DNA of 11,528 nt from Alistipes sp. Its GTDB lineage: Bacteria > Bacteroidota > Bacteroidia > Bacteroidales > Rikenellaceae. This document shows positions 1-10,380 of this stretch, one piece after another. The stretch's first letter is position 1. Each line of letters opens with the position of its first letter. The stretch lies in NCBI GenBank assembly GCA_017391435.1, contig JAFOYS010000328.1, positions 1 to 11,528 on the forward strand. Direction: 5' to 3'. A program made the translations under genes and the position numbers. The notes beneath the pieces were generated by a model. That model saw only the letters and a list, made by a program, of their open reading frames with translations, had not been told where the DNA came from and did no database searches.

Positions 1-235
1 GGGTCTTGAGGCTGTAACGGCTGAAGATGGAAGCTTTGTAACAAACCAGGTGCACGAGTTCGGTATTTTTGGTAAATTGCTCTTTACCGATGTAGACGGA
101 GCAGAGAATGGTGGCGAATTTGCTACTAAGACTGTCGATCTGAATGCTCTACCAAAGAACCAGGTTACAGAGGGAGATAGCTGGTATAGTGGCGAGTATG
201 AGGTTACGGCAGATGTAGAGCTTAGAAAAAAGTAG
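1..235 (+). CDS. 3' end of putative lipoprotein of a radical SAM/lipoprotein system (5' truncated)
   Basis: The reading frame is open from base 2 to the TAG at 233-235 and shows the last 77 residues; the start and any signal peptide or lipobox lie outside the window. The first residues (GLEAVTAEDGSFVT) resemble the start of a carboxypeptidase-regulatory-like beta-sandwich strand. The middle carries an acidic, glycine-rich stretch, TDVDGAENGGEF (visible residues 29-40), followed by ATKTVDL; the end is YEVTADVELRKK. There is no cysteine in the visible part. From memory, the DVDG..NGG.F stretch and the gene directly downstream match the putative lipoprotein family named for pairing with a radical SAM enzyme (TIGR04134-type). 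The next gene begins 18 nt after the stop, so the two are probably co-transcribed. Lipidation and surface or periplasmic location are inferred from the family, not seen. If the family call is wrong, it is simply an exported beta-sandwich protein of unknown role. Confidence 0.7.
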   Translation, partial: GLEAVTAEDGSFVTNQVHEFGIFGKLLFTDVDGAENGGEFATKTVDLNALPKNQVTEGDSWYSGEYEVTADVELRKK

Positions 236-253
236 TCAGAACCTTAGGTCGCT

Positions 254-1330
254 ATGAGGGATGTAAGTAAGTTGGGGCTTCGTCGTCGTTTAGCCCTTGA
301 ACTATGGCGCAAACTTGAGAATGAAAAGGTGGAGAGTCATCCGCTGCGTCAGCTCTTCTGGGAGTGTACTCTGAGGTGTAATCTTAATTGTCGTCACTGT
401 GGTAGCGACTGTAAAAATGTTGCTACACAACCTGATATGCCCCTTGATGATTTCCTTGCAGTCCTTGACAATATTGCTCAAAACACCGACCCACACAAGG
501 TCTTTGTGGTTGTTACGGGCGGAGAGCCTCTTATGCGCGCTGACCTTGAGAAGTGTGGCCGCGCAATATATGATAGAGGTTTTCCGTGGGGTATGGTCAC
601 AAATGGGCTTGCAATGACCCGCAGACGCTTTGATTCTCTGCTTGCGGCTGGACTACACACGGCAACAGTCTCATTAGATGGTCTTGAGAGTGACCATAAC
701 TTTATGAGGGGTAATGCTAAGAGCTTTATGGCAGCCTCTGAGGCTATCCGTATGATGGCTCAGACCGAGGATTTTGTCTTTGATGTGGTCACCTGTGTGA
801 ATAGGCGAAATATTGATAAACTTGACGATATTAAACACCATCTGCTCAGCTTGGGTTGCAAACAGTGGCGACTCTTTACGGTCTTCCCTGTAGGTCGTGC
901 AGCAGAGGATCCAGAGTTGCAACTTGACCGAGAGCAGTTCCATAAAATGTTGCAATATATTGCCGACACTCGCAAAGAGGGTAAAATAGCGGTTCAGTAT
1001 GGCTGTGAGGGCTTCTTGGGCGCCTATGAAGGCGATGTTAGAGACAACTTCTACGCTTGTCAGGCGGGTATAACAGTAGGCTCTGTGCTTTCTGACGGAG
1101 CGATATCGGCCTGCGCGAGTATTCGTGCAAATTACAATCAGGGCAATATCTACAAAGATAAATTCTGGGATGTCTGGACAACTCGCTTTGCCCCTTACCG
1201 CAACCGCGAGTGGATGCGTAGTGGTCAGTGTGCCGACTGCTCATATTTCCGCTACTGCAAAGGCAACGGAATGCACCTACGCAATGAGAAGGGCGAGCTT
1301 CTGTTCTGCCACCTAAAGCGATTATTGTAG
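254..1330 (+). CDS. Radical SAM/SPASM enzyme of the rSAM/lipoprotein pair
   Basis: 358 residues. The N-terminal radical SAM core has the cluster motif C42-x3-C46-x2-C49 (CNLNCRHC) and the SAM-binding GGEP at 89-92. A SPASM-type C-terminus holds C269, the G282-x4-C287 pair, C326-x2-C329-x5-C335 and C352. Such enzymes bind one SAM-cleaving [4Fe-4S] cluster plus auxiliary clusters and usually modify a peptide or protein in the cytoplasm. The canonical cysteine four residues after C335 is replaced by Gly339, so one auxiliary site may be incomplete. The basic N-terminal segment MRDVSKLGLRRRLALELWRK precedes the core. The ATG at 254 is the first good start after the upstream stop and leaves 18 nt between the genes; no strong ribosome site is visible. 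The partner gene upstream makes this the TIGR04133-like 'rSAM/lipoprotein' enzyme. The reaction is unknown; modification of the lipoprotein precursor is the natural inference but nothing here proves it. The TAG stop is also the first three bases of the repeat that follows. Confidence 0.9.
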   Translation: MRDVSKLGLRRRLALELWRKLENEKVESHPLRQLFWECTLRCNLNCRHCGSDCKNVATQPDMPLDDFLAVLDNIAQNTDPHKVFVVVTGGEPLMRADLEKCGRAIYDRGFPWGMVTNGLAMTRRRFDSLLAAGLHTATVSLDGLESDHNFMRGNAKSFMAASEAIRMMAQTEDFVFDVVTCVNRRNIDKLDDIKHHLLSLGCKQWRLFTVFPVGRAAEDPELQLDREQFHKMLQYIADTRKEGKIAVQYGCEGFLGAYEGDVRDNFYACQAGITVGSVLSDGAISACASIRANYNQGNIYKDKFWDVWTTRFAPYRNREWMRSGQCADCSYFRYCKGNGMHLRNEKGELLFCHLKRLL

Positions 1331-1443
1331 CTGTTAGCCATTAGCCATTGACAGGCTAACGCAGATTAGATAATTTAGAAAAGTTAAGGAGTTTAGGGAA
1401 AATTATCATTATATTCTCTAAACTCCTTAAACTCACTAATAGC
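1328..1443. repeat. Composite intergenic repeat element, copy A
   Basis: Fills the gap between the convergent radical SAM gene and thiL. Left part: 7-bp units TAGCTGT, TAGCCAT, TAGCCAT from 1328, starting on the stop codon. Middle: GGCTAACGCAGA (1354-1365), then the hairpin at 1384-1430. Right part: degenerate 9-bp units TCTAAACTC, CTTAAACTC, ACTAATAGC (1417-1443). The same order of blocks recurs at 10226-10380: CTGTTAGCCATTAGCCATT is identical over 19 bp (1331-1349 and 10236-10254), GGCTAaCGCAGA differs by one base of length, and TTAAGGAGTTTAGGGA is identical. Copy A lacks the right-hand array of AATAGCC units seen in copy B. There is no coding potential. It could be a REP- or MITE-like element, or a structured bidirectional terminator. 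Confidence 0.75.
1384..1430. terminator. Hairpin in repeat copy A, candidate bidirectional terminator
   Basis: The left arm TTAAGGAGTTTAGGGAA (1384-1400) pairs with 1414-1430 over 17 positions, with one G-U pair in plus-strand RNA, around a 13-nt loop. It lies between two convergent genes. Neither side has a clean U tract (minus strand continues CTTTTC), so intrinsic termination is plausible but not shown. Confidence 0.4.
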
Positions 1444-10228: not shown

Positions 10229-10380
10229 CTATTGGCTGTTAGCCATTAGCCATTAGCTGGCTACGCAGAACAAAAATTTAAGGAGTTTAGGGAAGTAAAA
10301 ATATCCTTAAACTCCTTAATTTCATTAATTTCCCTAATTAGCCAATGGCCAATAGCCAATAGCTAACGGCCAACAGCCAA
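10226..10380. repeat. Composite intergenic repeat element, copy B (full-length form)
   Basis: Fills the gap between convergent korB and tsaD. Left array of 7-bp units from the korB stop: TAGCTAT, TGGCTGT, TAGCCAT, TAGCCAT, TAGCTGG (10226-10260). Then CTACGCAGA, the hairpin at 10278-10319, a run of 9-bp units (CTTAAACTC, CTTAATTTC, ATTAATTTC, CCTAATTAG; 10306-10341), and a right array of six 7-bp units (ATTAGCC, AATGGCC, AATAGCC, AATAGCT, AACGGCC, AACAGCC; 10337-10378). The outer arms 10232-10258 and 10354-10380 are inverted copies, 23 of 27 positions matching, so the whole 150-bp block can fold into a long stem with an inner hairpin. It shares its left array, GGCTAcGCAGA and hairpin arm with copy A. 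No coding potential and no obvious target-site duplication. Confidence 0.8.
10278..10319. terminator. Hairpin in repeat copy B, candidate bidirectional terminator
   Basis: TTAAGGAGTTTAGGGA (10278-10293) pairs with 10304-10319 over 16 positions with one G-U in plus-strand RNA; loop of 10 nt. The left arm is identical to that of copy A while the loops differ. Plus-strand RNA continues UUUCAUUAAUUUCCC, only weakly U-rich. Confidence 0.4.

Follow-up and report, generated by a model that had tools for sequence, protein, structure and literature searches.

The described systems closest to the locus reported here include the spliceases of the PlpXY type. According to the report on PlpXY, splicing occurs naturally at MYG and LYG and does not depend on the leader; tags derived from PlpA2 read LYGLP or GYGLP, and other proteins can be spliced by way of tags of ten residues taken from the PlpA2 core, although this worked for only two of the FtsZ variants that were tried (PMC10533398). 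The same report mentions 27 other characterised and 939 predicted splicing systems (PMC10533398). PlpX is placed in IPR026482 and has the RRE protein PlpY as its partner (PMC11002830), and spliceotide products are described as protease inhibitors in a further report (PMC11117315). For the TIGR04133/TIGR04134 pair of NCBIfam, no paper turned up and no reaction is named in the literature searched; TIGR04133 may already have been reported among the 939 predicted systems (Scott 2022).

The stretch of DNA analysed here (the window) is 11,528 bases long and is the whole of contig C321 of a MAG that is 73% complete. The gene pair at its start has the following parts.

2..235 (+): TIGR04134-type lipoprotein, truncated at the contig start to its C-terminal half (77 aa), from its TIGR04134 match
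89..121 (+): loop DVDGAENGGEF in the beta-sandwich domain that only long partners have, from the sequence and the partner comparison
236..253 (+): intergenic gap of 18 nt, from the ORF coordinates
254..1330 (+): TIGR04133 radical SAM/SPASM enzyme, 358 aa, ATG start, proposed lipoprotein splicease, from NCBIfam, Pfam and tree
377..406 (+): CX3CX2C for the SAM cluster (C42, C46, C49), then G50-S51, within the CNLxCxHCGS signature, from the alignment
1010..1042 (+): linker signature G253, G256, Y258-E259 and R263 ahead of the SPASM cysteines, from the alignment
1058..1309 (+): SPASM region with the invariant C269, C287, C326, C329, C335 and C352, from Pfam and the alignment

A sequence-only reading had recognised this pair as TIGR04133/TIGR04134-like, with the enzyme 18 nt downstream of a small ORF, and both statements hold. 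ORF 254-1330 follows the stop of ORF 2-235 on the same (+) strand, and the 18-nt gap between them is consistent with a single transcript. An HMM check against NCBIfam gave the enzyme 586.3 bits to TIGR04133 (cut-off 425; positions 1-349 of 350) and the partner 42.7 bits to TIGR04134 (cut-off 39.8; profile positions 80-150 of 150 only). Radical_SAM (59.4 bits) and SPASM (26.2 bits) of Pfam also match the enzyme above their cut-offs, and it has the radical SAM CX3CX2C and the SPASM cysteines of the PlpX type. The visible part of the partner contains, as described, the DVDGAENGGEF stretch and no Cys. The partner's N-terminal half is missing from the window; its lipobox and the expected Xaa-Tyr-Gly-Xaa-Pro (XYGxP) motif would lie further upstream. 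In the nearest relatives (L029-L031), whose enzymes are 86-87% identical, the long partner begins with a signal peptide and a lipobox, followed by CEYGTP; the partner had been called a lipoprotein, and this is borne out on the same gene in these relatives, outside the window itself. In L029 and L030 it is followed by another gene, whose product of 59 residues has a lipobox and LMYGTP and lacks the domain. Of the loci fetched (the best 80 of 418), the nearest to the window come from MAGs of Alistipes and Rikenellaceae, several of which are ruminant-derived by title. A short dispersed intergenic repeat lies at window 1323-1400; seven further sites in the genome hold copies with 76-83% identity, window 10230-10294 among them.

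The motif was counted in a pooled set of 142 loci, comprising 80 (best 80 of 418), two plasmid loci and 60 from other genomes; L001-L028 stand outside the pooled counts, most of them being the same places as loci already included. Loci whose enzyme scored at least 225 bits to the window enzyme were treated as TIGR04133-like (131/142), the remaining 11 having more distant SPASM enzymes. For the strict motif, Y(G/A)xP had to stand no more than 75 residues past the lipobox Cys of a lipoprotein within 2 kb. Such a lipoprotein was found at 116 of the 131 TIGR04133-like loci, which are related by descent and thus not independent events, vs 0 of the 11 distant SPASM loci. Among lipoprotein-like ORFs more than 2 kb from the enzyme, the motif was seen in 1 of 335, and this one is itself a family member (L069). 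Seven of the 15 loci without a strict match still have a YG lipoprotein: five of these (L129, L132, L143, L156, L167) have no Pro at +3, and two (L151 and L153, VYGSP) were missed because the filter picked the wrong Cys. At 8 of the 131 loci (L076, L096, L099, L107, L150, L158, L166, L168) no XYG lipoprotein was found nearby; L168 begins close to a contig end. L096, L099 and L107 are Prevotella-type loci, each with a MATE-like transporter ORF upstream.

Hits of the search pattern contain Y, G/A and P by design, and motif-blind checks were therefore made. When same-strand lipoprotein-like ORFs ending within 60 nt of an enzyme start were collected (n=100), 89 had the strict motif and six more had YG. 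The other five are L033 (short, no YG), L172 (CYASQ), L107 (transporter) and wrong frames in L139 and L167. The L033 protein is a genuine short lipoprotein in which the YG has been lost, and another such protein, at L044, reads YSAP. Furthermore, YGxP occurs in 30 of the 30 loci of the genus that were fetched by the TIGR04134 model alone, a set in which the motif was one of seven cues for frame choice and some loci overlap earlier ones. Among 198 sampled genomes of the order, TIGR04134 is above cut-off in 28 and TIGR04133 in 47, the window genome being in both lists (compared by hand). All 28 fall among the 47, so the gene pair is conserved, as the sequence-only reading had supposed. For the 19 genomes with TIGR04133 and without TIGR04134 above cut-off, 19 loci from 16 of them were available, and an XYG lipoprotein is present in 16 of these loci. 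The family scores, the conserved pairing and the frequency of XYGxP partners support the earlier suggestion that the lipoprotein is the candidate substrate.

After two wrong frames (L046 4120-4368 and an antisense frame in L128) were removed from 165, the comparison comprised 163 partners in 116 loci. By length from the Cys on, 27 of the 163 are short (<80 residues) and 136 are long. LGF or LGY occurs within the signal peptide of 116 of the 163, and 13 have two motifs, one of which (L063) is inside the domain. The residue before Tyr in 178 motifs, the two wrong frames included, is E (74), M (48), C (26), L (10), A (9), V (5), K (4), S (1) or I (1), and the residue after it is G (173) or A (5); position +2 is occupied by T, V, S, A, C, M, P, G, Y, N or I. 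The lipobox Cys serves as X in 22 partners, and 20 of the 22 adjoin enzymes at 239-358 bits to the window enzyme. Seven columns are invariant in an alignment of 24 hand-picked long partners, most of which came from a pattern already requiring YGxP, and the motif's Y, G and P account for three of these columns. Some variants were observed at single loci. The partners at L131 3088-3477 (-) and L142 3565-3963 (-) have CYACP and CYAMP, not CYGxP; at L187 3584-5244 (-), five different XYG lipoproteins stand in a row ahead of one enzyme gene; and in P0084 (526 aa) and P0088 (508 aa) enzyme and lipoprotein are fused in one ORF, which may be natural or due to a lost stop or a sequencing error.

The window pair belongs to TIGR04133/TIGR04134 by score, and the TIGR04134 model describes the long partner. 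When it was tested on five other partners, the short ones of L029 and L155 and the long CYG partner of L162 fell below cut-off, and those of L135 and L148 gave no match. The predicted structure of the L029 long partner has a mean pLDDT of 84, with residues 18-29 below 50, and in this model Y33-G34 lies at the end of the low-confidence tether, directly ahead of the first strand (37-47). This placement would put the site on the tether between anchor and domain. The domain model bears a weak likeness to carboxypeptidase-regulatory and transthyretin-like sandwiches (Pfam CarboxypepD_reg below cut-off), and its fold matches, likewise weak, are to intradiol dioxygenases, the SusC NTE domain, a Parabacteroides DUF3823 protein and Teneurins, with a best E of 1.6e-4. 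A catalytic role for the beta-domain was rejected on account of these weak matches, and the domain is read as a carrier. The Asp/Asn/Gly, Trp and Tyr residues that had been singled out in the visible part of the window's partner are probably not the modification site: D.D(G/W/S) is found in 124 of the 136 long partners, and the DVDGAENGGEF domain is missing from all 27 short ones, none of which has DxDG. The stretch was thus ruled out as a common modification site; with the short partners lacking it, lipobox plus XYGxP is kept as the common denominator.

The kinship of the enzymes was examined in three trees, all with few outgroup families and long branches and with L027 left out, and in each of them TIGR04133 clusters with TIGR04103, TIGR03913 and an Agathobacter enzyme (92/89, 88/61 and 97/92). 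The last of these trees had AhbD-like rows added and no NirJ2 row. In it the L190 enzyme joins the clade, and the AhbD-like row L188 is placed with NirJ and TIGR04347 (91/82), apart from TIGR04133; no obvious XYG peptide was seen in the neighbouring stretch read for L190. In the same tree TIGR03913 is the sister of TIGR04103. The CNLxCxHCGS signature of the window enzyme is also found in TIGR04103 and TIGR03913, and residues G50, G253, G256, E259 and I299 are present in 12/12 TIGR04133 rows, 8/8 TIGR04103/TIGR03913 rows and 0/9 other SPASM rows (PqqE, NirJ, MftC, TIGR04053 and TIGR04347). Residue L40 follows nearly the same distribution (11/12, 8/8 and 0/9), and Y258 and R263 occur in 1/9 and 3/9 of the other SPASM rows. 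These comparisons point to a common ancestry of TIGR04133 with the PlpX-type families. The HMM scores of the window enzyme (AhbD 128, TIGR04053 126, NirJ2 122 and TIGR04103 115 bits) do not single out TIGR04103, and with 115 bits vs a cut-off of 725 the enzyme is not filed as a TIGR04103 member. Its structure model (mean pLDDT 73.5, the SPASM part weaker) is too uncertain for the active site.

TIGR04103, which we take to be the same family as IPR026482, and TIGR04133 have in common a SPASM enzyme with CNLxCxHCGS and an adjoining gene-encoded substrate (for TIGR04133, a candidate one) with Xaa-Tyr-Gly, followed by Xaa-Pro in the cases seen. A candidate substrate with an Xaa-Tyr-Gly site beside the enzyme, as expected of a splicease, is found for the TIGR04133 family, the site being out of view in the window itself. 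The two differ in their substrates, which would be lipoproteins for TIGR04133 and are Nif11 or NHLP leader peptides for the PlpX type, and Glu and the lipobox Cys are frequent at X in TIGR04133 partners, unlike the PlpX type. The window enzyme, with 358 residues, has no C-terminal extension, vs 412-420 residues for the PlpX type. PlpX acts together with the RRE protein PlpY; in the window enzyme itself no RRE-like domain was found, by Pfam match or in the 41 residues that precede C42, where the model has one helix (9-28).

Members of the neighbouring families were seen beside peptides with similar motifs. A Nostoc plasmid enzyme (TIGR04103 at 853 bits) adjoins a Nif11 peptide ending ALYGLPPELF, and the Agathobacter enzyme, which is closest to TIGR04103 (235 bits, below cut-off), has upstream of it a peptide ORF ending VMYGTGVRM. 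The latter ORF (L114 2701-2916, +) is unannotated and lies on an Agathobacter rectalis plasmid, followed by the SPASM enzyme and an MFS transporter gene; this locus, from a human gut Lachnospiraceae, is a candidate spliceotide cluster. TIGR03913, the GDL motif peptide maturase, stands beside short DUF1843 peptides that carry a Tyr motif near their N-terminus, in some of them YG (L113, L115), and is similar to TIGR04133 in having a Tyr motif there. These peptides are, unlike TIGR04133 partners, small, leaderless and not lipoproteins, with YA and YM besides YG. The DUF1843 peptides at L113 2147-2860 and L115 2037-2737, which stand by TIGR03913-type enzymes and have YG, YA or YM near the N-terminus, may likewise be splicease substrates. 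The haem enzymes AhbD and NirJ2 share the SPASM architecture and have comparable HMM scores; they differ from TIGR04133 in that their substrates are tetrapyrroles and in the position of the AhbD-like row elsewhere in the tree.

Taken with moderate confidence, and drawn from comparison of sequences, our preferred reading is that the TIGR04133 enzyme is a splicease whose substrates are lipoproteins, without a classical RiPP leader. The same motif could instead undergo another reaction, such as crosslinking of the Tyr ring, through a C-C or ether bond, with a neighbouring residue (e.g., +2 or the aromatic at +7) or an epimerisation. Many crosslinks are formed by SPASM enzymes; an aromatic residue is frequent at +7 (21/27 short and 105/136 long partners), and the solved folds nearest to the enzyme model (SkfB, SuiB, BlsE, DesII and PqqE) include three, SkfB, SuiB and PqqE, that form other bonds. 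However, the aromatic at +7 is not invariant, +2 varies widely and may be Gly or Pro, a poor crosslink acceptor, and an invariant YG with a variable X agrees with the published splice rule, so that a different reaction at the motif seems unlikely, if quite conceivable.

It is still less probable that XYGxP and the signal peptide are only a recognition tag for chemistry elsewhere, e.g., at the DxDG loop, which most long partners keep, or at the lipobox Cys, which the motif touches in 22 partners; the short partners share little else and have no such loop, and the lipobox Cys is required for lipidation. We also considered a small molecule or another protein as the substrate, with the lipoprotein as a co-expressed sensor or carrier. 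The best outside NCBIfam models for the window enzyme do include AhbD and NirJ2, which act on tetrapyrroles, but XYGxP persists while the partner scaffolds differ widely, the five partners of L187 stand in a row as precursor genes do, and the two fused ORFs (with the reservation of a lost stop or error) join enzyme and lipoprotein directly; this explanation is therefore judged very improbable.

Under the splicease reading, we infer the reaction, the sequence of events and the function as follows. The enzyme would act in the cytoplasm on pre-lipoproteins at Xaa-Tyr-Gly-Xaa-Pro, the target site being 1-70 (mostly 1-16) residues past the lipobox Cys. Through excision of tyramine (-C8H9NO), part of the Tyr would leave the backbone and a reactive beta-amino acid would stay near the anchor. 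The edited protein would then be exported, lipidated and anchored, and an electrophilic ketoamide would be displayed on a flexible tether beside the membrane. Its likely use would be the covalent capture or inhibition of proteases, or else the shielding of the anchor region; the protease-trap role draws on one statement that spliceotide products inhibit proteases (PMC11117315). The motif yields one sharp prediction, namely a loss of 135.068 Da at the named Tyr. If the proposal is true, ketoamide backbone editing without a classical RiPP leader would be common in the membrane lipoproteins of gut bacteria, the family being present in 47/198 sampled genomes of the order, and new splice tags as well as a possible surface protease-inhibition system would be at hand.

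The window genome (G000) has one TIGR04133 match, and a second lipoprotein with TACYGTP was found on another of its contigs (C143), beside recA.

L192 2411-2797, G000 contig C143 (-): orphan CYGTP lipoprotein by recA, with no enzyme gene in the stretch read

Three sister genomes (G028, G029 and G446) contain the same orphan, and each of them has a single TIGR04133 match, located elsewhere. The lipoprotein that corresponds to it in G003, also situated behind a large lipoprotein gene of this kind, is accompanied by an enzyme gene of its own. A search of the recA locus in the window genome turned up no remnant of an enzyme gene. Among the four orphans, pairwise dN/dS ranges from 0.06 to 0.10, indicating purifying selection. 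These observations fit modification of the orphan in trans by the window's enzyme, as judged from the genes at hand; a second enzyme copy may have been missed, since completeness is 73% for the window genome and 87-89% for the three others.

The pair is also carried by plasmid pTS1 of Treponema saccharophilum, with a lipoprotein that has TSCYGMP and an adjoining serine recombinase gene; its presence outside the Bacteroidota suggests horizontal transfer. Tentatively, and with considerable doubt, we propose that gut Bacteroidales and this Treponema plasmid display ribosomal beta-amino acids on their membranes, that one splicease may edit several lipoproteins at XYGxP, in trans too, and that the ketoamides might be tethered protease traps. 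In a protein search, at least 7,972 of 7,998 scored clusters, possibly including other SPASM families, matched the window enzyme at E 0.001 or better, and the 120 relatives among the matches listed are all at least 63% identical.
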